IMG/VR virus record: IMGVR_UViG_3300017788_000055
Location: 1 to 42,952 of that record
Strand: one strand, 5' to 3'
From: a virus
DNA length: 42,952 nucleotides
Below the pieces are notes generated by a model, which did no database searches, was not told where the DNA came from, and saw only the letters and a program-made list of their open reading frames with translations. Shown piece after piece: positions 1 through 14,319 of this stretch (position 1 is the stretch's first letter; every line of letters begins with the position of its first letter). The position numbers were made by a program, and so were the translations under genes.

Positions 1-3000
1 GATCCATCAACTAATTTTTGTTGGTCAGAGCGTAGATAATTGTACCAAATTTCCCAACCCGTCACAGTTCCACCAGTATCACGCAATGCGGACAATGTGT
101 GTTCTCTACCAGTAGATGGATCAACATACCAACCAAATAAAACACCGATTGTGTCATCATCAGCATTTGATGATTTAAGTTGAACTTTGAGAACATAATC
201 TGAATATGATTCTGGTGAAACAAATCCAATAAAGGTTCCGCTATTAGTTGTGCTAGAAATGACACCTGTATTTGCGTCAAATGACCATGCACTTAACTCG
301 CTCGCATTCGCAGGTTGATTTACTGTGCTATTATGAGAAAATCTTGTCCATGTATTGAAGATTGTTGCATAGTCAGTCAAACTATTTTGAGCAGCTGACA
401 ATTCACCAGCAGTCTCAATAAAGTATCCTTTGACAAGCGTGAATCCATTTTCTCTTTCAAATGTTGCAGTATTTGCTAAGAAAGAAACTTGTCCTTCAAG
501 ACCAACAGGAGCAATGTTTGCAAGTTGTTGACCGTCAAGTAAATCTGCATCAAGGGTTGACAATGAACCATCATTACCTGCATGCCATACAGTGTTACGA
601 TTGATCATCACACCATTGGCACTTACAACATCAAAGTTGATACGATCATCTGCATCATTCGTCATCTTGAATGTCATTTCAGTGGCTTCACCACCTAATG
701 GATTCAATAACTTGATTGTTGCAGTGTCACTACCACCACCAAATGCATCATTCGGGAATCGAATTCCACCACTTGCACCAGCAGCAACATTGAGGCTGTT
801 TACATTTGCATTATGTGTGCTGAACAATCTTGTCGTTGCATTGAACGTGAGATCAGTACAACCAGAAGCAGCACCACCACCATTGTAAATAATTTGTGTA
901 TCAGCACCAGCAAGTGGACCTGTTGGTCCTTGTGGACCCAAACTACCTGTTGATCCAATTCCACCTTGTGGACCTGTTGGTCCTTGTGGACCCAAATCAG
1001 TTATATTGATAGTTCCAGTCATTGCTGAATGATTCTGACACACATAATACAATGTGCTTGGTGCATTATATGGAACAGCAAAGGTGATGTTGCCTGAAGC
1101 TGTTCCGTTGTTTGTTACACCACTGCTATAAACATTTCCAGAACTATATGGTGCAGCGACTGTTTGAATCCAGAATGGATGACCTGTTGCACTGATACTA
1201 AACAAATAAGTAAATCCACGCAACAATGTTATTGTCGGATCATTTGCTCCATCTATAGTGTAATGACTTGCACCGCTATTTGTGACCGTAAATGTTCTTG
1301 CTCCTGTTACACCTTGTGGACCTTGTGGACCTTGAGGACCTTGTGGACCCTGTGGTCCTGTTGATCCAGCAGCACCAACTGGTCCTTGAGGTCCAGCAAC
1401 ACCAGCAACACCTTGTGAACCTTGTGGTCCTTGTGGTCCAGTATCACCAGCAACACCAGCAGCACCCTGTGGACCTTGTGGACCTGTACCGCCTGGACCT
1501 TGTGGACCTTGTGGACCTGCATCACCTGTTCTTCCAAATGACAATAGAATTGACTGGTTTGAAGTGAAATTTGCTGATGTTCCTGTTATATGAGTAACAT
1601 CTAATTCATAGTACCCAGTTCGATCAGTCAAATCATTGATTTCATACAATTCAAAAATGCCAGCATCATGATTTGCAAAAACCTTCAAATAACCTTTTAC
1701 AATACTCGTGCTATCATTAAGTGCTGTCAAGAACGTCAAAATATTTGCGCCATTATCATCAACATTATCTACAAAAACTTTTGTCACAATTGTTGGCGTG
1801 GCATTATTGAAATTGATTTTACCGACACCAGGATCAGTGTTTGTCAGTGCAGTATTGAAACGATATCCAAATGTGATGCCACCATAAGTGCCTTGTGCGC
1901 CAGATGGTCCAGATGGACCTTGTGGTCCTTCAATACCTTGTGGTCCTGTTGGTCCTTGTGGTCCTTCAACACCTTGTGGTCCTTCTAGTCCCTGAGGACC
2001 TTGCGGACCAGAAGCACCAACTGATCCAGGTGCACCTTGCAATCCTTGTGGACCTTGCGGACCCTGTGGACCTTGTGGACCCTGTGGTCCTTGTGGACCA
2101 AAATCACCCTGTGCGCCTTGTGGTCCTTGTGGACCCTGTGGACCTTGTGGTCCTTCGACGCCTTGTGGACCCTGTGGTCCTTGCGGTCCCTGTGGACCAA
2201 CAATCAATCCAGCATCAACCCATTGTACAAGATCATCATTGTAAACATACAAGTGTCCAATGCTTGTAACAACATAAGCATCAGCATCATTGGCTGATCC
2301 AGGAAGATCAACAACATTGATTACTGTTCCAAGAACATTGATACCGCCACCTGGAATACCTTGAGCACCTTGCGGTCCTTGTGGACCCTGTGGACCTTGT
2401 GGACCAACAACACCTTGTGGACCTTGTGGACCCTGTGGACCAAAGACACCCTGTGGACCCTGTGGACCAAAGACACCCTGTGGTCCCTGTGGACCCTGTG
2501 GACCAATATATGGTCCAACATCAACCCATTGCGCTGGTGTTGGGCAATCATCCCAAACAAATAAATGACCAGTGCTTGAAACAATGTAAGCATCACCAGG
2601 ATTTTGATCAGTGATTGCTGAGAGAAGTATTTCATAAGTTGGTACAGTACCAGCAAGACGAATGCCAGCACCAGTTGGACCAGCAGCACCTGATGGACCA
2701 GATGGACCTTGCGGTCCTCTTACACCTTGTGGTCCACTTGCACCTTGAGGTCCTTGTGGTCCAGAGAATCCACGATCACCTTTTGGTCCTTGTGGACCAA
2801 TTGGACCTTGTGGTCCTTTCACACCTTGTGGTCCACGACGACCAATAGTTGCTGTGACTTCCCATGTCATTCCATTGTAAATAAATTCAGTGGTGACACC
2901 ACGAATATTCATCTCAACAATTTGATTGCTACCTTCAATGGTATTGTCTAATGAGCGAACAAATAGTGGATTTGCATTCCAGTTATCACCATCAGTAATT

Positions 3001-4214
3001 TGAACGTATCCGCCAACAACTGGAGTATTTGGAAGTGTGATTGTAAATGGACCGTTGATTGTTGTATTTGCAACAATACGATCACCATCAACAGAAGTAT
3101 AATCAAGAGAATGAACTGACCAGTGTTGAAGTGCACCAGAAGCACCTTGCGGTCCTGATGGACCAGCAATACCTTGTGGACCACGCGGACCAGCAACACC
3201 TTGTAAACCTTGTGTGCCTTGAGGACCGCTTGGACCAGATGGACCAGAAGCACCCACAGGACCAGAAACGCCTTGTGGTCCTTGTGGTCCTGCAAAACCT
3301 CTTGGACCAGATGGACCTGATGGACCTTGCGGACCAATTTCACCTTGAAGACCTTGTGCGCCTGTTGGACCTTGTGAACCAGTAAATCCACGTGGACCTT
3401 GTGGACCTTGTGCACCAGCAAGACCTTGTGCGCCAGATGCGCCAGAAGGACCTGTTGGACCAGCAACACCAGACGGACCAGTTGCACCTGATGGTCCTTG
3501 TGGACCTGTAAATCCTCGAGGACCAGATGGACCTTGTGGACCCTCATCACCAACTGCACCAGATGGACCAATTGGACCTTGCGGACCAGCAGCACCAACC
3601 AAACCACGTGGACCAGATGGACCTTGTGGACCAGCAAAACCTTGTGCACCACTTGCGCCAGAAGGACCTTGTGGACCTACTACGCCAGTTGCACCAGTTG
3701 GACCAGCAACACCTTGCGGACCGCGCGAACCAGTTGCGCCGCTTGGACCAATTGGACCTGTTGGTCCTTCGTCACCTTGAATACCTTGCGCGCCAGATGG
3801 ACCAGATGGTCCTTGTGGTCCAAGCACGCCTTGTGGACCTTGCGGACCACGAACACCTTGAGGACCAGCAACACCTTGTGGACCTTGTGCACCAGCTGGA
3901 CCCGATGGACCAGCAACACCTTGTGGACCACGAACACCAGATGGACCAGATGGACCCTGTGGTCCTAAAACACCTTGAGGTCCTTGAGGACCAGCAACAC
4001 CAATCGGACCAGAAGGACCAGAAGGACCTGATGGACCTTGCGGACCACCAGAAGGACCTGTTGGACCAGCAACACCTTGTGGACCTGATGGACCTTGAGG
4101 TCCAAGTGGTCCTTGAGGACCTGCACCACCACGAGCCGTTGCAACTGTTATAACTGGCTTTTGTGTTGAAATTTTGATCGTTTGGCTTGCAGCCGTCGTA
4201 ACATTCGCTGGCAT
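1..4214 (-). CDS. Collagen-like modular tail fibre protein, partial (C-terminus beyond window)
   Basis: A single frame stays open from the ATG at 4214 to the left edge, giving about 1,404 residues with no stop. After a 28-residue N-terminus ([10 protein letters not shown]...) there are six Gly-Pro-X blocks at about residues 29-357, 456-515, 568-620, 669-776, 891-968 and 1067-1103, with mostly GPQ, GPS, GPT and GPA triplets. Between them lie globular modules: a beta module (358-455), two related short modules (516-567 and 621-668, both ending in W-V-D-[VA]-G), an approximately 110-residue module (777-890) and a cupredoxin-like module (969-1066). The C-terminal part has the tail-fibre signature WHAGNDG...LDADLLDGQ near residue 1210, then a beta-rich region resembling lectin-like receptor-binding ends. 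The start is 1 nt past the stop of the Ig-like gene, so the two are probably one late operon. Collagen-like phage fibres are usually trimeric; that and receptor binding are inferred. Confidence 0.88.
902..4131 (-). repeat. Collagen-type Gly-Pro-X coding repeats (9-bp periodicity, interrupted)
   Basis: The minus strand repeats GGTCCACAAGG-like units (Gly-Pro-Gln-Gly) with 9-bp and 18-bp periodicity in six blocks, interrupted by non-repetitive module sequence at about 2852-3143, 2512-2668, 2208-2352, 1545-1885 and 1015-1308. The repeats create many long open frames on the plus strand and in the other minus frames. These have Leu/Val/Asp- or Trp/Thr-rich low-complexity translations and are not genes. 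Confidence 0.9.
1015..1308 (-). other. Cupredoxin-like module inside the collagen-like fibre
   Basis: Residues about 969-1066 of the fibre form a compact beta domain with a conserved GHPFWI segment (His1012) and a C-terminal [10 protein letters not shown] segment giving Cys1059, His1062 and Met1065. One upstream His followed by a Cys-His-Met cluster is the ligand pattern of type-1 blue copper proteins, although the Cys-x2-His-x2-Met spacing is tighter than in many classical cupredoxins. The module is bracketed by Gly-Pro-X blocks, so it is a bead on the fibre. Copper binding is inferred. Confidence 0.6.
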
Positions 4215-4215
4215 A

Positions 4216-4551
4216 TTACTTCGTTACCTGTGGAAGAACGGTAATGATACCCTCAACAATTCTTGTTGTAAGGTTCGCAGTATCCTTTTGCTTTACGTCA
4301 AAAAGATATCGACCTGCTTTGATATTTGAGGTTGTTGCAGCATTCATCGTCAATGTGACGTTTCCGTTGGATGAATCTGTAATCGTCACAACGAGATTCG
4401 CTGTAGCGTTTGCTGAATAGTATGACTTTCGAATAGACGATGTAAAGATGTAACCTGTTACATCCAATGGGCTTCCATCGTCTTGTGTTAGGTCTAGATT
4501 ATAAGAGAGATCGGTTCCCTGATCGAGATCTAATTCTACAAATTGCGCCAT
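4216..4551 (-). CDS. Small Ig-like/BppU-like virion structural protein
   Basis: This 111-residue protein starts [20 protein letters not shown] and contains an all-beta pattern ([18 protein letters not shown]..., ending [10 protein letters not shown]...[16 protein letters not shown]). That resembles the Ig-like N-terminal domain of baseplate upper/fibre-adaptor proteins found in many tailed phages. It is the first gene after the best late promoter in the window (4576-4583), has a GGGGA ribosome-binding site, and ends 1 nt before the collagen-like fibre starts. An adaptor that anchors the fibre is a reasonable role but is inferred from position. A generic virion protein of unknown attachment is the alternative. 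Confidence 0.7.
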
Positions 4552-4609: not shown

Positions 4610-5416
4610 TCAATCTCCTGTGTTTTTCTTGAGTTTGAATTTCTTTTTGATCATGTAATACTTACGATACCAGTTACTTTCATAGAACCTTTTCGGCGAT
4701 TTATGATAATCAAGCTGTTCGTTTGTTCCTGGACCGTATGATGCACTGAAGTCATCTGTTGTTTTGAATGGAATTACATGCAACATCGGAGTTCCAGCAG
4801 GAATGGAAATTTCGATATTTCTTCGCGGTGAGAAGATAATGTTCGCAGTTGTAAAGCCTCTATAATCTACAACTCCAGGATACAGATAAATGTCTTCCAA
4901 GAATGGACAATGATAGACTGCAGGGAGCAAAAGAGCAGATACATTTTTATTTCCAAACAATTTCCAAGGTGTTGGAAGATTCCATGCAGTTGGTTTGATT
5001 CCATCTTTGAAAGTAAACAATCCATCAGTCAATGATGTTTCCATTGGAAATGGTTCTCGCAATCGACTTTCTGCTTGTGGTATTTGCATTGGTGGTGGAG
5101 TTGCCACACCTTTTTCTTTTGCGCCTTTATCGTTAGGAGAAGTTCCAAGACGAATTACAGTTCCTGCTCTGTTGGCTTTGATATGTATATCAGCCCATGC
5201 AGTAATCAGATAACCAACTCTTGAGTAGTCATGCATTCCAGGGCATCCTGGAAAGTTATAATTCCCATCATCTTTTTCTTGAAACTCTTTGAAAAACGGT
5301 TTTACATCTTTTGCTAAAAGAATTGGATAGTGAGTGTAAACTTGTCGTGTCGAGTCAACAAATTCTAAATCTGGAGAATTCTTTCGAAAAAGATTTTTTA
5401 GCCTATTCATCTTCAT
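4610..5416 (-). CDS. Conserved protein of unknown function, paralogue of the 5403-6149 product
   Basis: This 268-residue protein starts MKMNRLKNLFRKNS with a basic N-terminus and ends in a very basic tail (KKKFKLKKN). Its core shares landmarks with the preceding gene's product: a C-x-x-M-x-D segment followed by A-D-I-H, a central W/F-rich beta region with YHCPF (NHFDAPF in the paralogue), a later P-G-V-V-D-Y segment matching G-G-Y-V-D-T, and S-I-P-A-G-T-P-M-x-H-V-I-P-F-K near the C-terminus, matching S-V-P-A-G-T-P-L. The two appear to be divergent duplicates. The fold could be a double-stranded beta-helix (cupin-like), but no convincing metal triad was identified. It overlaps the upstream gene by 14 nt, so it is translated from the same message as the hydroxylase. 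No function is assigned. Confidence 0.75.
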   Translation of the reverse strand: MKMNRLKNLFRKNSPDLEFVDSTRQVYTHYPILLAKDVKPFFKEFQEKDDGNYNFPGCPGMHDYSRVGYLITAWADIHIKANRAGTVIRLGTSPNDKGAKEKGVATPPPMQIPQAESRLREPFPMETSLTDGLFTFKDGIKPTAWNLPTPWKLFGNKNVSALLLPAVYHCPFLEDIYLYPGVVDYRGFTTANIIFSPRRNIEISIPAGTPMLHVIPFKTTDDFSASYGPGTNEQLDYHKSPKRFYESNWYRKYYMIKKKFKLKKNTGD

Positions 5417-6149
5417 GTTTTCTCTTTCTCAATTCCCAAGTATAGTGATGCGTTCGACTTTCTTGAGTTTTTTGAATCTTAGAGATTTTTCTTTTCTCAG
5501 AATCCGTCATCTTTCTAACTTTTGGCTTTTTATTGTTGAAAGAATTTCTCTTGATTGGAATTGCGACAACCAACGGAGTTCCTGCAGGAACACTTCCATC
5601 AAAATCTGGAATCATCCATGCGCCAGGAAAATTCACTTCCTTTGGATATGCGTCTGTATCGACATAACCACCCAAGCAACGAAATGGTGCATCAAAGTGA
5701 TTGAGTGGAGGAATGAACAATGTTGACCAACCTGGTTTTGTTTTGATCACCCAACGATTGATGAACTTGATTGGATTGCCATGCTTGAATCCGAACGCTG
5801 ATTTGCCGCCAACTTGTCCTGCGTCATGAAACTCTGCCACAGGAAATGCTGGTGGATTTTTGAGTTCAATTTGAGTGCAGTTGTGATTTGTCGTCACATG
5901 AAGATCACCACCCAATGGCATTACAAATCCGAGTGACATTGCATCAAGCATTGGCAAACACTTCTTGGCAGTCATTGTTGGATTGCCAAAGATATCTCTT
6001 TTATCGCCGTCGAATGTTGGTGCAAGATCTTTGAACCATTTCGGTAAATGTTTTACAGCAGGGCGAGGTAGAGGAATAATTTCCTCGAAATCTGGATGGC
6101 AATAGAATTCCATGACATCATTGCCCCAGTATTTGAACCAATTTTTCAT
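5403..6149 (-). CDS. Conserved protein of unknown function, paralogue of the 4610-5416 product
   Basis: This 248-residue protein starts MKNWFKYWGNDVMEFYCHPD and has CLPMLDAMSLGF...GGDLHVTT, then KTKPGWSTLFIPPLNHFDAPF and SVPAGTPLVVAIPIKR, ending in a highly charged Lys/Arg tail (about residues 205-248). It begins 2 nt after the hydroxylase stop, so it is in one operon with the 2-oxoglutarate oxygenase (6151-6750) and overlaps the next gene by 14 nt. The repeated pairing with a hydroxylase suggests a role in the same process or on the same substrate. No catalytic motif could be named with confidence. A beta-barrel or cupin-like fold is a guess from the alternating hydrophobic strands. Confidence 0.75.
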   Translation of the reverse strand: MKNWFKYWGNDVMEFYCHPDFEEIIPLPRPAVKHLPKWFKDLAPTFDGDKRDIFGNPTMTAKKCLPMLDAMSLGFVMPLGGDLHVTTNHNCTQIELKNPPAFPVAEFHDAGQVGGKSAFGFKHGNPIKFINRWVIKTKPGWSTLFIPPLNHFDAPFRCLGGYVDTDAYPKEVNFPGAWMIPDFDGSVPAGTPLVVAIPIKRNSFNNKKPKVRKMTDSEKRKISKIQKTQESRTHHYTWELRKRKHEDE

Positions 6150-6150
6150 A

Positions 6151-6750
6151 TCAAAAAGTCCTTGGTCCCATGACCCAACAAACTAAAGATTTGCGTATAC
6201 CAGAAGTCACAGGAAGAACTCGATGTGGCATAAACGATGAGAATAGAACCACCTCACCCTTTTTAGGTTTCGTTACGAATGGCTTGTTCACTGAACCGTG
6301 CGGAACAATCTCTAATTCGCCTCCTTCATATTCATCTGGACCAGTCAAAAGAATTGATGCACTAATCTTGCGAACATAATTGGCACTCGTATTGTCTACG
6401 TCAACATGCCAATCATAGTGTTGTTTTTGTTTTGATTTATAGACAGTGTATTGAAAGTTCTCAAAGCCATCGATGTCATACATGAAGTGATCGTAATTGA
6501 CTTGAGAAATAAGTGCGCCAAATTTTTGGAAGAGCCAGTCTGAGTTTTGATCATGATTGAGCCACATGATCTCGCTGTCCCGAGCTTTTTTATCCTCAGA
6601 ACCCTGAGTCCCAGTACCAATTCGACCCTTTTGAAACTTTTGTAGATCTTCTAGATCTATGATTTTGTCAACTTCTTCTTCGGTGAAGATATTATTCGCG
6701 ACACAATATTGTTCTAATCGTCTGTTATACTTTTGCACTTTGAATGGCAT
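6151..6750 (-). CDS. Fe(II)/2-oxoglutarate-dependent hydroxylase (PKHD/prolyl-4-hydroxylase-like), complete active site
   Basis: The 199-residue product shows the full 2-oxoglutarate dioxygenase facial triad: His115-Val-Asp117 (YDWHVDVD) and distal His176 (FMPHRVLPVTSG), with Arg186 in the SG-I-R-K-S-L segment placed to bind 2-oxoglutarate. The RKISASILLTGPDEYEGGEL segment between them is typical of the PKHD/PiuC-like prolyl-hydroxylase branch. I chose the ATG at 6750 rather than an in-frame start 27 nt upstream, because a GGAG ribosome-binding site lies 5 nt before it and the paralogue at 10081-10644 starts at the same point. It heads an operon with two unknown paralogues and follows a Tyr/Asn/Pro/Gly repeat-protein gene. 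The substrate is probably peptidyl proline, but that is inferred. Confidence 0.87.
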   Translation of the reverse strand: MPFKVQKYNRRLEQYCVANNIFTEEEVDKIIDLEDLQKFQKGRIGTGTQGSEDKKARDSEIMWLNHDQNSDWLFQKFGALISQVNYDHFMYDIDGFENFQYTVYKSKQKQHYDWHVDVDNTSANYVRKISASILLTGPDEYEGGELEIVPHGSVNKPFVTKPKKGEVVLFSSFMPHRVLPVTSGIRKSLVCWVMGPRTF

Positions 6751-6786: not shown

Positions 6787-6794
6787 TATTTATT
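6787..6794 (-). promoter_or_regulatory. Late-promoter-like AATAAATA followed by TATAAT
   Basis: The minus strand reads AATAAATA, one base from the T4 late core. Three bases later comes TATAAT (6778-6783). The element overlaps the TAA stop of the repeat-protein gene (6790-6792) and lies 36 nt upstream of the hydroxylase ATG at 6750. The same AATAAATA-N3-TATAAT arrangement occurs before the paralogous hydroxylase at 10682. Confidence 0.55.
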
Positions 6795-9072
6795 CAATCT
6801 TTACAACTATTTGTCCACCTGTAGGTACAACTACTGGATAGTTTGCTGAGTCTGGATAGATGTTTGTATCCACTGGAGTTTCTGGAACATATGGTGCTAA
6901 TTGACCAGCATTGTAACCTGCAATATTTCCAGGAGCATTGTAATTGGCAGTTGCTCCTACACCGCCTGGGAAAAACACACCAAGAACAGTTGTCGCAGTT
7001 CCAGGTGTTCCAAGAATTGGCGCATTGTACGTTGCAACACTTCCAGCATTGTAAGACGCAACAGTGTTACCTGTATATGTAGCAGTCACTGGAGGATTGT
7101 AACTTGCTGGATTGCCTGCGTTATAGTTTGCAAGATTATTGCCAGTATATGTTGCAGGATTTCCAGGGTTGTAAGTTGCTGGATTTCCAGCGTTATAATT
7201 TGCAAGATTATTGCCAGAGTATGATGCAATTGATCCTGGATTATACGTTGCAGCGTTACCAGCATTATAACCAGAAACATTATTTCCAGTATACGTTGCA
7301 GCACTGCCAGCATTGTAGTTTGCTGAACCTGGATTATATGTTGCTACGTTTTGCGGATTGTACGTTGCTGTTGTGCCAGAGTTATAGTTTGCATTGTTAC
7401 CAGAATATGCAGCAATGTTTGTTGGATTGTAACTTGCTGGTGAACCTGAGTTATAGTTTGCGCTGTTGCCAGAATATGCAGCAATGTTATTTCCAGTATA
7501 AGAGGCTGGTGAGCCTGCATTGTAATTTGCGCTGTTACCAGAGTATGCAGCAATATTATTTCCTGAATATGATGCAGGGCTTCCTGTGTTGTAATTGGCA
7601 GAGCCTGGATTATATGCTGCCACATTACGAGGATTGTATGATGCTGGTGTACCAGTATTATAGTTTGCGCTATTACCAGAGTAACCTGAAATATTTTGTG
7701 GATTGTATGATGCAATATTATTTCCAGAATATGATGCTGCAGTGCCAGCATTATAATTGGCAGAGCCTGGATTATAATTTGCTACTGTTGGAGAATTATA
7801 TGTTGCCGCATTACCTGCATTATAGTTAGCAGATCCAGGATTATAACCAGAAACATTTGGAGGATTGAACGTTGCTGCTGTGCAACTATATGTAATTTCT
7901 TCATAATAAGTGTAATAGTCAACGGTATTGAAGGTGCTGTAACCTTCAGGACAAAATGGATCAGGTCCTCCAGAAAATTCATTGATATAAAAATTAGTTT
8001 CTCCCTGATTCGGATCGCCAGAACCAAATGCTGAGTAAAATTCACTATAAAGAACTGCGTTCCAATAATAACTTGTCGCAGTTCCAGGAGCAAAGTTTGC
8101 ATTATTGCCAGAATACGCAGCTATGTTACGAGGATTGTATGAGGCAACACTACCTGGAGTGAAGTTTGCATTGTTTCCAGAATATCCAGCAACGTTGCGT
8201 GGATTATATGATGCTATGCTGCCTGGATTGTAACTTGCTGCAGTTCCTGTATTGTAGTTTGCAGACCCAGGATTATATGCAGCGACATTACGAGGATTAT
8301 AAGTTGCTGGATTTCCAGCATTATAGTTCGCACTATTACCAGAGTATCCAGAAACATTTGTTGGGTTATAAGATGCTGGTGATCCAGTATTGTAATTAGC
8401 AGAACCTGGATTATAGGCTGCTAGATTATTTCCAGAATAACTTGCTGGATTGCCAGTATTGTAATTAGCAGAACCTGGATTATAGGCTGCTAGATTGTTT
8501 CCTGTATACGATGCAGGATTGCCAACGTTATAATTTGCACTGCCTGGATTGTAAGCAGCAACGTTGCGAGGATTGTAAGAGGCTGGTGTACCAGCATTGT
8601 AGTTCGCATTGTTGCCAGAGTATCCCGCTACGTTTGTTGGATTGTAAGATGCAATGTTTCCAGAGTTATATCCTGCGACATTGCGAGGATTATAAGAGGC
8701 AATATTGTTTCCGCTATAAGTTGCCGCACTACCTGCATTATAGTTGGCAGAGTTTCCTGTAAAAGAGGCAGGATTATTTCCAGAATATGTTGCAGGATTG
8801 CCAGCGTTATAGTTCGCGTTGTTACCTGTGTAACTGGCTGTTACAGGGGGATTGTAACTTGCAGGATTACCTGCATTGTAGGTCGATGCACTATTTCCAG
8901 AATAGGTTGCTGCAGTTCCTGGAGTTGCGTTTGTACCTGTTCCTGCTCTACCTGAGACTAGAGCGTTGAAGCGACCATATGGAATGGTAAGACTTGACGT
9001 GTTGTTGAAAGTCGTAGTGTTTCGGAATGCCGAACCGATCCAGCTTTTCAACAAGTCTGTGTGTAGAGGCAT
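6790..9072 (-). CDS. Tyr/Asn/Gly/Pro-rich 7-8-residue repeat protein, complete family member
   Basis: This 760-residue protein has a short unique N-terminus (MPLHTDLLKSWIGSAF, then IPYGRFNALVSGRAGTG) and a C-terminal cap (GVFFPGG, then YPVVVPTGGQIVVKIE). Between them are dozens of 7-8-residue units of the form A-x-Y-[NST]-x-G-[NST]-(x), such as ASYNPRNV, AAYNPGS and ANYNAGNP. About eleven units contain Asn-Pro-Gly. Residues about 325-405 are a non-repetitive insert with a C-P-E-G and a Y-S-C motif that recurs in the 12391-14319 product. The start motif and cap are split between separate genes upstream (12391 and 10685), so this gene looks like the intact version. Tyrosine periodicity suggests a repetitive beta structure. 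It is probably a virion fibre or decoration protein and a candidate hydroxylase substrate, but I cannot name a known family. Confidence 0.8.
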   Translation of the reverse strand: MPLHTDLLKSWIGSAFRNTTTFNNTSSLTIPYGRFNALVSGRAGTGTNATPGTAATYSGNSASTYNAGNPASYNPPVTASYTGNNANYNAGNPATYSGNNPASFTGNSANYNAGSAATYSGNNIASYNPRNVAGYNSGNIASYNPTNVAGYSGNNANYNAGTPASYNPRNVAAYNPGSANYNVGNPASYTGNNLAAYNPGSANYNTGNPASYSGNNLAAYNPGSANYNTGSPASYNPTNVSGYSGNSANYNAGNPATYNPRNVAAYNPGSANYNTGTAASYNPGSIASYNPRNVAGYSGNNANFTPGSVASYNPRNIAAYSGNNANFAPGTATSYYWNAVLYSEFYSAFGSGDPNQGETNFYINEFSGGPDPFCPEGYSTFNTVDYYTYYEEITYSCTAATFNPPNVSGYNPGSANYNAGNAATYNSPTVANYNPGSANYNAGTAASYSGNNIASYNPQNISGYSGNSANYNTGTPASYNPRNVAAYNPGSANYNTGSPASYSGNNIAAYSGNSANYNAGSPASYTGNNIAAYSGNSANYNSGSPASYNPTNIAAYSGNNANYNSGTTATYNPQNVATYNPGSANYNAGSAATYTGNNVSGYNAGNAATYNPGSIASYSGNNLANYNAGNPATYNPGNPATYTGNNLANYNAGNPASYNPPVTATYTGNTVASYNAGSVATYNAPILGTPGTATTVLGVFFPGGVGATANYNAPGNIAGYNAGQLAPYVPETPVDTNIYPDSANYPVVVPTGGQIVVKIE

Positions 9073-9118: not shown

Positions 9119-10081
9119 TCAATCGTAACGATCAGGTATTTCCCAGTCGTTTATCACATCTGGAGGAAGAAGAATTCCTCGAGAGATTGCGCGATTTTCA
9201 AGTTTTCGATTGATATAGTCTACACCAGAATACTTTCGATATTCTTCAAAAAAACTGTCATCAAAACTATCGAGAAACGTTCTAAACTCTCGTCTTGATT
9301 TCTCGCGATTTCTATTCAACTGCTCATGCGAAACAACCTGATTGATTTCTTGCTTCGTTACATATCGATGCGTGTCCATCAAATGATAGCAATGAATCTT
9401 TCTTGGTGCGCAGAGTTTGTATCCTGCGGCGATTGAAGCCAGTGTCATGTACTGCTCCTCGCCTTCAAAGAAGATTCGTGGATTCATTCCAACATTGCGA
9501 ATCCAATCTGTGTGCGTAAAGAAATTTCCTGCGAAAAGATGAATCGTTGGATGTAGGGAATCTTTGGTCGCTTCTCGAAACTCGCCATGAGCACCAAGAA
9601 TATAGTTATCGTGAAATGACCAATAACCAGCCTTTACAGTAATGTCACCATGACGATCAATGAATGGCTTGCCATCTTCTTGCATTCTAAACGTGCCACA
9701 GTTCGCATCGATAATGATTCGCTCAGTTTGATGCTGCTGCATACCAAGTTTGAAATCGCTAATCAAATAGCGATCCCAATTTTTATCAAAAAGCATATGT
9801 GAGTCTACTTGATAGTAAAACTCTTCATCATCGATTTGAATGCTATTGATATGTCTTGCCCAACCAACGCCATCAGAATGTTTTGCGTCGATTCTTTTGT
9901 ATCGAACATTTTTATTTTGCGCAAGGTCGGGATACTTGGCTTCAAGGCTGTCAGGAAAATCTGTTTGTTCAAAAATTCCGTAAGTTACTTTTGTCAGTTG
10001 AGATTGCATCTCCATCATATTGCGAAGAGTTTGATGAAGCAGTGGGTCTCGATAAGAGACAATACTGACAAATATTTTCAT
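9119..10081 (-). CDS. GT60-like (PF11397-type) N-acetylglucosaminyltransferase
   Basis: This 320-residue protein opens with KIFVSIVSYRDP, a classic start for this glycosyltransferase family. It then has GVGWARH (residues 71-77), the metal/sugar-nucleotide motif Q-V-D-S-H (Asp93-Ser-His95), an A-G-N-F-F segment, and the acidic F-F-E-G-E-E motif near residue 210. These match the family of Dictyostelium Gnt1, which transfers GlcNAc from UDP-GlcNAc to hydroxyproline on Skp1. I set the start at the ATG at 10081, not 84 nt upstream. The ATG shares a base with the stop of the hydroxylase gene (TAATG), and upstream residues would overlap that gene. The coupling suggests the two enzymes act in sequence on one protein. 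The sugar and acceptor are inferred; a hydroxylysine- or serine-directed enzyme is possible. Confidence 0.85.
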   Translation of the reverse strand: MKIFVSIVSYRDPLLHQTLRNMMEMQSQLTKVTYGIFEQTDFPDSLEAKYPDLAQNKNVRYKRIDAKHSDGVGWARHINSIQIDDEEFYYQVDSHMLFDKNWDRYLISDFKLGMQQHQTERIIIDANCGTFRMQEDGKPFIDRHGDITVKAGYWSFHDNYILGAHGEFREATKDSLHPTIHLFAGNFFTHTDWIRNVGMNPRIFFEGEEQYMTLASIAAGYKLCAPRKIHCYHLMDTHRYVTKQEINQVVSHEQLNRNREKSRREFRTFLDSFDDSFFEEYRKYSGVDYINRKLENRAISRGILLPPDVINDWEIPDRYD

Positions 10082-10644
10082 TAGCAACCTCGCTTGCCCA
10101 TGATCGAAACATTGAGAGTTCGGCGAGTTCCAGAAGTTACTGGAAGAATGCGTGATGGCATCCATGGCGCATGAAACACGACATGACCGAGTGGTGGTTT
10201 GATTGGAATTACTTCGGTTGGATCACCAGTGCTCAACACTTCGATCTCACCGCCCAAGTATTCTTCTGGATCTGTAAGCATAATTGATGCGCTAATCTTG
10301 CGTTCCCAATTTAGAAACACAAAGTCGACATCATAGTGCCAACCACACTCTTGACCTTTTTTATATTTGGTAAACTGAAAGAAATCGAATCCATCAACAT
10401 CATACATGAAGAAATCGATATTGATTCGACCAACCAATGCAGAAAACTTGTCAAAGATCCACTGAGTGTCTTGATTTTGTACAAGAGTTGCGATGTCGGC
10501 TTTGTTTTTACTATTTTGCTGATCACGACCGAACATCAATTTCTTCTCAAGAGAGAGAATTTGTTCTACTTCTTGTTGATCGAGAAAGTCTGAAACGACT
10601 GCAAATTTAGAGAGGACACGATTATATTTGATGACTTGAGGCAT
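10081..10644 (-). CDS. Fe(II)/2-oxoglutarate hydroxylase paralogue with distal His replaced by Ser
   Basis: The 187-residue product is a paralogue of the 6151-6750 hydroxylase (shared KYNR start, FMYD[IV]DGF, RKISASI, GGE[LI], LPVTSG). It keeps His103-Tyr-Asp105 and the 2-oxoglutarate-binding Arg174. At the distal iron-ligand position it has Ser164 (WMPSRILPVTSG) where the paralogue has His176 (FMPHRVLPVTSG). Another His (158) lies six residues earlier. The start is the ATG at 10644, 6 nt after a GGAG ribosome-binding site, rather than the GTG at 10656. The gene overlaps the glycosyltransferase by one base (TAATG). It may be inactive, a scaffold, or an unusual iron site. Two-ligand sites exist in the superfamily (halogenases lack the Asp rather than the distal His), so inactivity is not certain. 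Confidence 0.83.
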   Translation of the reverse strand: MPQVIKYNRVLSKFAVVSDFLDQQEVEQILSLEKKLMFGRDQQNSKNKADIATLVQNQDTQWIFDKFSALVGRINIDFFMYDVDGFDFFQFTKYKKGQECGWHYDVDFVFLNWERKISASIMLTDPEEYLGGEIEVLSTGDPTEVIPIKPPLGHVVFHAPWMPSRILPVTSGTRRTLNVSIMGKRGC

Positions 10645-10681: not shown

Positions 10682-10689
10682 TATTTATT
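10682..10689 (-). promoter_or_regulatory. Late-promoter-like AATAAATA followed by TATAAT
   Basis: The minus strand reads AATAAATA, three bases, then TATAAT (10673-10678), overlapping the TAA stop of the repeat-protein gene (10685-10687). It lies 37 nt upstream of the hydroxylase ATG at 10644. Layout and spacing match those before the other hydroxylase. Confidence 0.55.
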
Positions 10690-11584
10690 CGATTCTTACA
10701 ACTATTTGACCACCAGCAGGAACTTCAATTGGATGATTTCGATAATCGATTTCTTGGCTCTCAAAGTAGTAACTTACTTCTTGCTCAGCAACAAACACGC
10801 CAGGAGAGCAAACATTACCACCTGGGAAATAAACACCAAACGCATATCCTTGCTCGCCTGGAGTGCCTGGGATTGGGAAGTTATAAGTGCTTGCACTTCC
10901 AGGATTGTAAGTTGCTGCGAAGTTGGCAGTAAAGTTGGCAGCAAAATTGCCAGTGTATGTCGCAGGATTTCCAGTATTGTATCCACTCACAACATTTCCA
11001 GTATAACCTGATGGATTGCCAACATTATATGTCACTGGTGCAGATGGATTAAATCCAGTTAGTGTGTTTCCTGTGTATGATGCACAAACACCCAAGTTAT
11101 ACGATGCAACATTTTGCGGATTATAAGAAGCAGCACTACCAGTGTTGTAGGTTGCTGGTGTACCACCTGGGTTATATCCAGAAATACTTGGTGAATTGAA
11201 TTGCGCAGTTCCTGTATTGTATCCTGCCTCACTCACAGGGTTATATGATCCAGGATTTCCAGTATTATATGATGCTGCTTCTCCACCTGCATTATAGCCA
11301 GCTGAGAAATTGCTACTATATCCACCAATTGATGTTGGATTATATGTTGCTATATTTCCTGGACTAAAAATTTCATTGCCTGGACTAACAATTGCATTGC
11401 CTGGACTAAAAATTTCATTGCCTGGACTAACAATTGCATTGCCTGGACTAACAATTGCATTGCCTGGACTGTAAATTGGATCGCCGCCGCCGCCATCGCC
11501 GCCGCCGATATCGATAGTTAGAGCAAGTTTATCAACAATATTGTGTGAGTGACGAAATCTCATTGAATTATTTACAATCCTCAT
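10685..11584 (-). CDS. Tyr/Asn/Gly/Pro-rich repeat protein carrying the family C-terminal cap
   Basis: This 299-residue protein starts MRIVNNSMRFRHSHNIVDKL, passes a Gly/Asp-rich stretch (about residues 27-34), then has six S-P-G-N-containing 7-residue units (about 36-76). Further A-x-Y-N-x-G units follow, and it ends with GVYFPGG and a cap reading VPAGGQIVVRIE that matches the end of the 6790-9072 product (VPTGGQIVVKIE). It lacks the family's N-terminal IPYGR/VPYGR segment, which is on the gene two places upstream. It therefore looks like the C-terminal third of a split family member. It directly precedes the hydroxylase/glycosyltransferase pair. SPG and NPG sites make it a candidate substrate. 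Start choice is uncertain: the ribosome-binding site is weak and Met8 is an alternative. Confidence 0.72.
   Translation of the reverse strand: MRIVNNSMRFRHSHNIVDKLALTIDIGGGDGGGGDPIYSPGNAIVSPGNAIVSPGNEIFSPGNAIVSPGNEIFSPGNIATYNPTSIGGYSSNFSAGYNAGGEAASYNTGNPGSYNPVSEAGYNTGTAQFNSPSISGYNPGGTPATYNTGSAASYNPQNVASYNLGVCASYTGNTLTGFNPSAPVTYNVGNPSGYTGNVVSGYNTGNPATYTGNFAANFTANFAATYNPGSASTYNFPIPGTPGEQGYAFGVYFPGGNVCSPGVFVAEQEVSYYFESQEIDYRNHPIEVPAGGQIVVRIE
11357..11474 (-). repeat. 21-bp tandem repeat encoding SPGN(A/E)I(V/F)
   Basis: Six near-identical 21-bp units, in two alternating forms on the minus strand, encode Ser-Pro-Gly-Asn-Ala-Ile-Val or Ser-Pro-Gly-Asn-Glu-Ile-Phe. Low divergence between copies suggests recent expansion by slippage or recombination. 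Confidence 0.85.
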
Positions 11585-11590
11585 TTTAGG

Positions 11591-12388
11591 TTACGTGACC
11601 TCTGACTCGAATTCGCCGCCGCCGCCGCCACCACCACCACCGCCGCCGCCTCCAGGAGGTGGTTCTGGAGGTGGAGGTGGAGGTGGTTCTGGAGGTAGAG
11701 GTGGAGGTGGTTCTGGTGGTGGAGGAGGAGGTGGAGGAGGTGGAGGTGGTGGAGTTGGAGCAGCATTATATCCAGTAATATTTGGTGGATTGTATCCAGT
11801 AATATTTGATGGATTGTATCCAGTAATATTTGGTGGATTGTATCCAGTAATATTTGATGGATTGTATCCAGTAATATTTGGTGGATTGTATCCAGTAATA
11901 TTTGGTGAGTTATAAGAAGCAGCAGATCCCTCATTGTAAAATGCAATTCCTGCATTGTAATTTTCAGTTCCTACAGGAGTATACGTTGCTACAAAATTGC
12001 CAGTATATGAAGCAGGACTACCAACATTATAACTAGAAACATTGTTTCCAGTATATGAAGCGATATTTCCTGGTGTATAGTTCTCAGTGCCTAATGCATT
12101 ATATGTTGCAACAAAATTACCACTATACGAAGATATGTTTCCTGCATTATATGTTGCAATACTATTTCCAGTGAACGTTGCGCAAACACCTGGACTGTAA
12201 ATTGGATTTGACGTTCCAGTTGGAGCATTATAACCAACAATTGATGGTGGGTTGTATGTATTTCCAGGTGATGCTGGATTATAATTTTCTGTGTTGCCAC
12301 CACCAGGAATAAGATTTCCTGGAGTGAAGAACGCACTGCCAGTATTGTAGCCAGCAAAATTCCCTGGTATGTAGAATTCAGTACTCAT
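11591..12388 (-). CDS. Tyr/Asn/Gly repeat protein with poly-proline/poly-glycine C-terminus (middle piece of split family member)
   Basis: The 265-residue product starts MSTEFYIPGNFAGYNTG at the ATG at 12388, two bases after the stop of the upstream gene. An in-frame extension to 12568 would only read the proline/glycine codons of that gene in another frame (Thr/Ser/Arg-rich) and is rejected. The body has A-x-Y-[NST]-x-G units and six tandem N-I-T-G-Y-N-P-[PS] repeats (about residues 161-208). It then has a 13-proline run, P-E-interrupted proline runs, about 13 glycines and the ending EFESEVT. The upstream gene ends in the same way (EFESEVV), and the DNA from 11598 repeats that from 12398. 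It lacks both the N-terminal motif and the C-terminal cap of the family. Confidence 0.72.
   Translation of the reverse strand: MSTEFYIPGNFAGYNTGSAFFTPGNLIPGGGNTENYNPASPGNTYNPPSIVGYNAPTGTSNPIYSPGVCATFTGNSIATYNAGNISSYSGNFVATYNALGTENYTPGNIASYTGNNVSSYNVGSPASYTGNFVATYTPVGTENYNAGIAFYNEGSAASYNSPNITGYNPPNITGYNPSNITGYNPPNITGYNPSNITGYNPPNITGYNAAPTPPPPPPPPPPPPPEPPPPLPPEPPPPPPPEPPPGGGGGGGGGGGGGEFESEVT
11615..11757 (-). repeat. Poly-proline/poly-glycine triplet repeats
   Basis: CCN codon runs (13 Pro, then P-E-interrupted runs) switch through the palindrome CCTCCAGGAGG into GGN codon runs shortly before the stop. The plus strand is G-rich in 11640-11757. The Pro-to-Gly switch can fold as a GC-rich hairpin in the mRNA. 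Confidence 0.8.
11766..11906 (-). repeat. 24-bp tandem repeat encoding NITGYNP(P/S)
   Basis: Six near-perfect 24-bp copies are present, with plus-strand units reading GGATTGTATCCAGTAATATT plus TGGT or TGAT in alternation. They encode Asn-Ile-Thr-Gly-Tyr-Asn-Pro-Pro/Ser. The regular alternation implies that a 48-bp dimer was amplified. N-x-T sites recur in every copy. Confidence 0.88.
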
Positions 12389-12390
12389 TA

Positions 12391-14319
12391 TCACACTACC
12401 TCTGACTCGAATTCGCCGCCGCCACCGCCGCCGCCGCCACCGCCGCCTCCAGGAGGTGGAGGAGGTGGTTCTGGAGGTGGAGGTGGAGGTGGTTCTGGCG
12501 GTGGAGGTGGAGGTGGTTCTGGCGGTGGAGGTGGAGGAGGCGGTGGAGGAGGTGTATGTCCATCGCAATCTGGACTATTGAATTCAATAACTTCAACATA
12601 GAAGCTGCATGATCCATCAGCATATATTCCAAGTTTATTTGCACCTGCACCACAGAGTATACTCAATAGTGTTCCAACCTCTGGACACGCTGGTGGAGGT
12701 GGCTCTGGAGGTGGAGGTGGAGGTGGCTCTGGAGGAGGTGGTGGAGGTGGCTCTGGTGGTGGAGGTGGTGGTGGTTCTGGTGGTGGAGGTGGAGGTGGAG
12801 GCGGAGGAGGAGGTGGCGTTGGTGCAGGATTGTAAGCCTGAACTGGAGCATTATATGCTTCAGTATTTCCACTGTATCCAGCGATTGAAGGAGAGTTGAA
12901 TGTTCCAGGAGCAGCTGGATTATAAAGACCAGTTGCATTACCAGGAATGGTTCCTGTCACATTTCCAGGAGCAAAAATTGGATCGCCAGAACCAAGTGGA
13001 TTATAGTTTGCAATCGTTGCACCAGAACAATCAACAAATGGATTTCCAGCATTGTAATTTGCAAAGTTTCCAGAATATCCTGGAACTCCACCGCCACCTA
13101 CGTTGTAGTTTGCGTTTACTGGATTGTAATTTGCATTATTGTCAGCATATGTGATTGCGTTTCCTGCAGTAAATCCAGATGGATTGCCTGTGTTATAATT
13201 TGCATTGTTGCCAGTATATCCACCAATAAAATTGCCATCATATGTGGCTGGTGTTCCTGTGTTATAGGCAGAAATATTATTTCCAGTATATCCAGAAATG
13301 TTTGTTGCATTATATGTTGCAGGATTTCCTGGATTGTATACAAGAGAAACAGGATTGTATGTTGCAATATTACCAGGAGATGATGGTCCGCATGAATAGA
13401 AGATGTTGTAAGAAAACTCTATCGAGCTGCCGCGAGGAGATAATGTCCCTCGGAAACCTGGAAAGTTTTCACGAAAGACTGGAGAAAAATCTCCTTCAGC
13501 TGGACAGTTAACTGAGGCTCCAGTTCCTTCAAATAGAATTTGCTGATAGTAAAAAAATTCTGCATCAAAATACGTTTCAATAATTGCGCCATACCAATTT
13601 ACGAGTGGTGGATTATATGTTGCAGCGTCACCAGCATTATAACCAGAAACATTATTTCCAGTATACGTTGCAGGATTTCCTGTATTATATGTTGCACTAC
13701 CAGTGTTATACCCAACTATGTTGTTTGTGCCACCAACATATGATGCTGGATTTCCTGTGGTGTAATTCGCAACACCAGAGTTATATCCATTGATGTTTCT
13801 TGTATTGTATCCACCAGGAGTTGCAGGATTGAATGATGTGCCGACACCAGTGTTATATCCAGCAATATTTCCAGGTGTGTATCCTGATAGAGTTCCAGGA
13901 TTGAATGATCCGCTTGGTGCAGGATTTCCTATATTGTAACCAGAAATTACTGATGGATTGAAAGAAATTGCGCAAGGATTATAATTTGCATTATTTCCTG
14001 CGCTTCCTGGAATTGCATTATTGCCAGTATATCCTGCAGGATTTCCTTCGCTGTAGTTTGCACTATTCCCAGTATAACTTGCAGTAAAGCCTTGATTGTA
14101 TGTCGCAGCAACGCCAACGTTATAAGAAGCAACGCTATTACCAGTATATGTGGCAATGTTGCCAGGAACTAGACAGTTTCCTGATCCACCGCGACCAGAA
14201 ACATAGAGTCTGTTTCTACCATACGGAACAAACATATTTCCGTATGTGTTGAAAACAGTAGTTCCACGACTAGATCCAGGAACCCATGTTTTGACTAATT
14301 CATCTATACGTTTTGGCAT
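12391..14319 (-). CDS. Tyr/Asn/Gly repeat protein with poly-proline tracts and Cys-rich module (N-terminal piece of split family member)
   Basis: The 642-residue product starts MPKRIDELVKTWVPGSSRGT and has VPYGRNRLYVSGRGGSG, matching the N-terminus of the 6790-9072 product. Many A-x-Y-[NST]-x-G units follow, with an insert at about residues 240-320 carrying CPAEG and YSC (paired with CPEG and YSC in the homologue). Residues about 500-542 are poly-proline broken by single Glu residues. A Cys-rich module at about 543-592 (ACPEVGTLLSILCG...ADGSCSF...SPDC) is followed by a second poly-proline stretch and about 12 glycines, ending EFESEVV. It lacks the GGQIVV cap found downstream. No function is known. 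A long virion fibre with proline-rod spacers is the best guess. Confidence 0.78.
   Translation of the reverse strand: MPKRIDELVKTWVPGSSRGTTVFNTYGNMFVPYGRNRLYVSGRGGSGNCLVPGNIATYTGNSVASYNVGVAATYNQGFTASYTGNSANYSEGNPAGYTGNNAIPGSAGNNANYNPCAISFNPSVISGYNIGNPAPSGSFNPGTLSGYTPGNIAGYNTGVGTSFNPATPGGYNTRNINGYNSGVANYTTGNPASYVGGTNNIVGYNTGSATYNTGNPATYTGNNVSGYNAGDAATYNPPLVNWYGAIIETYFDAEFFYYQQILFEGTGASVNCPAEGDFSPVFRENFPGFRGTLSPRGSSIEFSYNIFYSCGPSSPGNIATYNPVSLVYNPGNPATYNATNISGYTGNNISAYNTGTPATYDGNFIGGYTGNNANYNTGNPSGFTAGNAITYADNNANYNPVNANYNVGGGGVPGYSGNFANYNAGNPFVDCSGATIANYNPLGSGDPIFAPGNVTGTIPGNATGLYNPAAPGTFNSPSIAGYSGNTEAYNAPVQAYNPAPTPPPPPPPPPPPPPEPPPPPPPEPPPPPPPEPPPPPPPEPPPPACPEVGTLLSILCGAGANKLGIYADGSCSFYVEVIEFNSPDCDGHTPPPPPPPPPPPEPPPPPPPEPPPPPPPEPPPPPPGGGGGGGGGGGGEFESEVV
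12412..12553 (-). repeat. Poly-proline/poly-glycine triplet repeats
   Basis: The same Pro-to-Gly switch as at 11615-11757, through the palindrome CCTCCAGGAGG, ending in codons for EFESEV and a stop. The block 12398-12423 is a direct copy of 11598-11623, 800 bp apart. Confidence 0.8.
12690..12820 (-). repeat. Poly-proline (P7E)n triplet repeats
   Basis: Runs of CCA/CCT codons encode 13 Pro followed by repeated seven-proline blocks separated by Glu. They form a rod-like linker just before the Cys-rich module of the 12391-14319 product. The plus strand is a continuous GGTGGAGG-type purine-rich tract. Confidence 0.82.

Follow-up and report, generated by a model that had tools for sequence, protein, structure and literature searches.

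We analysed a complete viral contig from IMG/VR (IMGVR_UViG_3300017788_000055; 42,952 bases, hereafter the window), in which a glycosyltransferase (GT) gene and a homologue of 2-oxoglutarate (2OG)-dependent Fe(II) oxygenases adjoin each other on the minus strand. The oxygenase homologue, ox1 (10081–10644, 187 residues), lies directly upstream of the GT gene (9119–10081, 320 residues), and its stop codon overlaps the GT start codon by one base (gctaATG); a Shine-Dalgarno-like GAGG lies 5' of the start. The coordinates of both open reading frames (ORFs) and the TAATG junction agree with a preliminary description of this locus, and the junction is retained in five of five distinct relatives. Pfam searches also confirmed the two families named there: the GT matches PF11397 ('Glycosyltransferase (GlcNAc)', E = 1.7e-28, 100.5 bits against a cut-off of 21), as do all seven members of alignment A1, and ox1 matches PF13640 (2OG-FeII_Oxy_3, E = 3e-8, 35 bits against a cut-off of 27). 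The GT carries an invariant D93-S94-H95 motif. Around these genes lie those for a collagen-like protein and for four repeat proteins rich in Tyr, Asn and Pro, and T4-like baseplate and tail genes adjoin, which bears out the tail-fibre setting proposed earlier.

Scanning viral sequences with the GT alignment yielded 75 loci, gathered by GT sequence alone, which were clustered at 90% identity to give 19 usable clusters in the clade related to the window's GT and 21 in a distant clade. In the related clade, an oxygenase gene is located on the same strand within 3 kb of the GT gene in 18 of the 19 clusters, in several different layouts, with none found at 3–8 kb, and 15 clusters have two or more DUF6065 genes within 3 kb as well. 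In the distant clade, 2 of 21 clusters have an oxygenase gene within 3 kb on the same strand, and none has two or more DUF6065 genes there. The co-occurrence check suggested in the preliminary description, run here on viral loci, thus supports the functional link it had proposed between GT60-type GTs and 2OG oxygenases, which are also head-to-head neighbours in 14 bacterial loci described below. The recurrent gene order is repeat fibre–oxygenase–DUF6065–DUF6065–GT, where the GT start usually overlaps or abuts the gene upstream, and a search from the oxygenase side recovered the same cassette. We consider it probable that this gene set of the window is a T4-like phage cassette for tail-fibre modification, whose oxygenase and GT decorate the phage's own fibre. 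Independent layouts of the same pairing, with oxygenases on both flanks of the GT, were observed in L012 (1248–3475) and L032 (218–4449).

In its canonical form, this cassette would act as a translationally coupled set of a repeat fibre, a 2OG oxygenase, two DUF6065-type proteins and a GT60-type GT. The oxygenase would most likely hydroxylate residues of the repeat fibre, and the GT would then add a sugar, probably an N-acetylhexosamine, at or beside the hydroxylated sites; that hydroxylation precedes glycosylation on the same residue is plausible, if short of probable. The window's clade has a rearranged form, with the genes divided between two clusters. One consists of a shorter Tyr-Asn repeat fibre gene (10685–11584, minus strand) followed by ox1 and the GT; the next consists of a longer repeat fibre gene (6790–9072), an intact oxygenase gene, ox2 (6154–6750), and a pair of DUF6065 genes (5403–6149 and 4610–5416, overlapping each other), all on the minus strand. 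The preliminary description had made no mention of ox2. In this arrangement, ox1 would serve as a probable non-catalytic partner of the GT, and ox2 would supply the hydroxylation. Complementary loss of two ancestral cassettes is a possible history, on which a GT tree gave no clear signal.

The role assigned to ox1 is based on its metal site. ox1 retains His103 and Asp105 of the HxD motif and the 2OG-binding Arg, and the distal iron-binding His is replaced by Ser164, leaving the HxD...H triad incomplete. Each of the six ox1-clade members (ox1 and five relatives) has Ser or Ala at this position. Among the 142 distinct related oxygenases in the fetched loci, 136 fall outside this clade, and all but one of them keep the distal His, the sequence end of the single exception appearing to be misaligned. 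The full HxD...H...R set is retained in the cassette oxygenases and lost only in the ox1 clade. Despite saturated silent sites, the ratio of non-synonymous to synonymous substitution rates of ox1 is approximately 0.07–0.13, indicating that ox1 is a maintained protein under purifying selection. Given that the ligand is lost in the whole clade and yet the protein is maintained, ox1 is probably a conserved, non-catalytic homologue as judged from these alignments. Human P3H4 may be an analogue of such a pseudo-hydroxylase partner. The clade-wide loss, together with the PKHD-type character of the best solved relatives of ox1, argues against its earlier assignment as the prolyl hydroxylase of the pair. 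In a phylogenetic tree, ox1 groups with the oxygenases of the L025 and L031 GT cassettes (support 0.87), which points to an old lineage and leaves the idea that ox1 is a recent copy of ox2 unsupported.

ox2 matches PF13640 with an E-value of 5.7e-17, and its H115, D117, H176 and R186, which are invariant in eight members (ox2 and seven relatives), make up a complete iron triad and 2OG-binding Arg. From these residues, ox2 is predicted to be most likely the active oxygenase of the window's set. Its nearest solved relatives are PiuC/PKHD enzymes (1e-9), followed by viral and algal prolyl 4-hydroxylases (P4Hs) at 4e-6 or weaker, and no PhyA chain was found among them within E 0.1; ox2 is thus not closer to P4Hs of the PhyA or collagen type than to other 2OG oxygenases. 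Among solved structures and NCBIfam models, PKHD-type hydroxylases (PiuC, YbiX and Sbal_3634) are closest in sequence to both ox2 and ox1, with scores far below the NCBIfam equivalog cut-offs. As many as seven related ORFs for 2OG oxygenases were seen grouped in a single viral locus (L142, 1482–6411; L145, 837–6462 onward).

For the GT, a sequence search returned no meaningful solved relatives. Its structural model resembles GT-A enzymes, with pp-GalNAc-T10 as the top Foldseek match (E = 1.1e-8), and this likeness to polypeptide GalNAc-transferases is no more than suggestive as to a UDP-GlcNAc donor and an α linkage to polypeptide. The structure prediction proposed earlier for both enzymes was therefore informative for the GT, whose model fits the GT-A fold, but not for ox1. 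Because the GT60 family includes, beside Gnt1, a polypeptide α-N-acetylglucosamine (GlcNAc) transferase from T. cruzi that is not tied to hydroxyproline (PMC6939170), membership does not fix the acceptor. The T. cruzi enzyme is also consistent with two separate modifications, in which the GT acts directly on Thr, Ser, Asn or Tyr and the oxygenase acts on other residues of the same fibre. The fibres are indeed rich in these four residues, and an oxygenase is mostly missing from the distant clade of viral GTs in this family. Against this, the near-constant co-location of GT and oxygenase in the related clade and its recurrence in bacteria suggest that the two reactions are dependent, and we regard separate modifications as unlikely.

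The fibre genes bear on the identity of the modified residue. The fibre encoded upstream of the cassette oxygenase has end domains common to distant phages, with an N-terminal 'KSW..TTTFN..PYGR..VSGRAG' and a C-terminal 'YPD.A.YPV.VP.GGQI' motif, whereas the repeats in between diverge fast. In the window, the protein encoded at 6790–9072, with 50 Tyr-Asn repeats of about eight residues and the cassette-common end domains, is the best substrate candidate. The recurrent repeat motif is Tyr-Asn or Phe-Asn, so that the target need not be proline; its conservation may be structural and alone is no proof of the target. Pro frequently follows Tyr-Asn in the window fibres and is absent there in L025, L028, L029, L031, L033 and L037, and the L044 fibre contains long Pro-free runs such as ASYNAQNVASYNAQN. 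Most cassettes listed retain a YPD motif close to the fibre's C terminus, which leaves room for a single Pro site. Two further Tyr-Asn repeat fibres of the window (11591–12388 and 12391–14319, minus strand) end in poly-Gly and contain long stretches of poly-Pro interrupted by Glu; among the loci compared, poly-Pro was combined with Tyr-Asn repeats only in this window, and no complete Tyr-Asn fibre from the relatives showed such stretches. The collagen-like fibre (3–4214, minus strand, open at the contig end; PF01391, E = 2.7e-84) has Pro at the X position of 130 of 220 triplets and at the Y position, where collagen P4Hs find their substrate in Gly-X-Y, of 3 of 220. We rejected it as a classical P4H substrate for this reason, and the collagen-like fibres of several cassettes are nearly Pro-free. 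In oxygenase–DUF6065 loci whose fetched stretch includes no GT (L158, L170, L141 and L137), the repeats are poor in Tyr-Asn (e.g., QPAYSVTTNYPSR), which hints weakly at an association of Tyr-Asn with the GT.

These data can be set against the model of the preliminary description, a counterpart of the PhyA/Gnt1 pathway on Skp1: an active ox1 would hydroxylate prolines of the Pro-rich fibres, and the GT would attach GlcNAc to the resulting hydroxyproline. The conserved TAATG coupling, the two protein families, the neighbouring GT60 and P4H genes in SAR86 bacteria, the poly-Pro segments of two window fibres and the retained YPD proline are all consistent with it. The missing iron ligand in six of six ox1-clade members, the PKHD-type relatives, the Pro-free repeats of other cassettes, the restriction of poly-Pro Tyr-Asn fibres to this window among the loci compared and the placement of collagen Pro away from Y speak against it, and we find this model highly improbable. 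Hydroxyproline as the modified residue is itself doubtful. Proline would be one of several possible targets, and the repeat sequences argue against it as the shared target that had been proposed.

It is likely that the cassette modifies the phage's own fibre. An effect on host metabolism has been proposed for cyanophage 2OG oxygenases (PMC3037559), and by analogy the cassette enzymes could target a host protein or a host surface glycan instead of the virion; the genes are located inside a tail-fibre operon and are linked to a fibre gene across distant cassettes, making a host target very unlikely. Several points weigh against a fibre-modifying cassette that couples the two enzymes. L052 and L053, two loci of one GT cluster, have no oxygenase, and L125 and L126 are oxygenase–DUF6065 cassettes without a GT. 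The pairing could also result from selection for neighbouring but separate reactions. With regard to the structural models, that of the GT is of moderate confidence only (predicted local distance difference test score (pLDDT) 61), and the AlphaFold model of ox1 is unusable (pLDDT 37, from a shallow alignment).

GT–oxygenase pairs are also present in bacteria. A scan of bacterial genomes identified 25 GT loci, mostly from SAR86, and in 15 of them an oxygenase gene adjoins the GT gene, tail-to-tail in one case and head-to-head in the other 14 (L183, L180, L196 and 11 others, mostly SAR86). The one SAR86 oxygenase tested (L183) matches P4Hs of Bacillus (E = 2.4e-33) and Chlamydomonas (E = 1.5e-31), in contrast to ox2, and its paired GT matches PF11397 with an E-value of 2.6e-41. 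Such pairs may represent a bacterial hydroxyproline glycosylation pathway. The related SAR86 loci amount to few independent events, but their layout differs from that in phages; the gene neighbourhoods lend independent support to the coupling of GT and oxygenase.

Hydroxylation-dependent glycosylation is known from eukaryotic Skp1 (PMC6939170, PMC3515798) and giant-virus collagen (PMC9614988). In the PhyA/Gnt1 pathway of Dictyostelium and Toxoplasma, as in the window, a 2OG oxygenase is combined with a GT60-family GT, there acting in series on one protein (PMC6939170, PMC3515798). The window enzymes differ in being phage-encoded within a tail-fibre operon that includes two DUF6065 proteins, in an oxygenase whose sequence is PKHD-like rather than PhyA-like, in a GT-coupled oxygenase without one iron ligand, and in a candidate target that is probably repetitive. 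The closest precedent among viruses is mimivirus L230, whose lysyl hydroxylase and glucosyltransferase activities place a hydroxyl group and glucose on Lys of viral collagen-like proteins (PMC9614988). Both would be cases of virus-encoded hydroxylation and glycosylation of the virus's own structural protein; L230 is one bifunctional protein built from other families, whereas the window belongs to a bacteriophage and has separate genes. Cyanophages often encode several 2OG-Fe(II) oxygenases per T4-like genome (PMC3037559). These (PHROG_61) belong to the same protein family as the window oxygenases, and in S-SCSM1 and ACG-2014a they adjoin tail genes. Unlike the window, named phage records, cyanophages included, yielded no related GT at E 1e-5 and only distant matches.

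If correct, the phage cassette and the marine bacterial gene pairs would bring hydroxylation-dependent glycosylation into prokaryotes, and the cassette, with its defined substrate candidate, would open a novel type of virion decoration to testing by mass spectrometry. The GT-coupled oxygenase, having lost an iron ligand, would also be an example from nature of an enzyme that became a partner protein. More tentatively, GT60-type GTs and 2OG oxygenases in several layouts may constitute a general prokaryotic and phage route to hydroxylation-dependent protein glycosylation, with which tailed phages carrying the DUF6065 pair decorate repetitive fibres on residues such as Asn or Tyr, and in which a pseudo-oxygenase has become a subunit that partners the GT. 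The open-access literature searched, which omits many journals, yielded no paper about DUF6065 or the phage cassette.

The two DUF6065-type proteins of the window are homologous to each other (profile comparison, E = 1.7e-14), and both match PHROG_7084; a sequence search for solved relatives gave nothing meaningful. DUF6065 may contain a motif resembling that of dUTPases. Relatives of the cassette DUF6065 protein at about 32% identity occur in haloarchaeal tailed viruses, including L175 (Halophage HF1), where the genes annotated around the relative include no oxygenase or GT. Next to the second DUF6065 gene, a small protein (4216–4551, minus strand) matches a PHROG annotated 'L-shaped tail fiber protein assembly' (E = 2.5e-15). 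In L033 (5273–5923) and L041 (1860–2552), a sulfotransferase-like gene, recognised by its start motif FNPKTG only, lies between the fibre and oxygenase genes.
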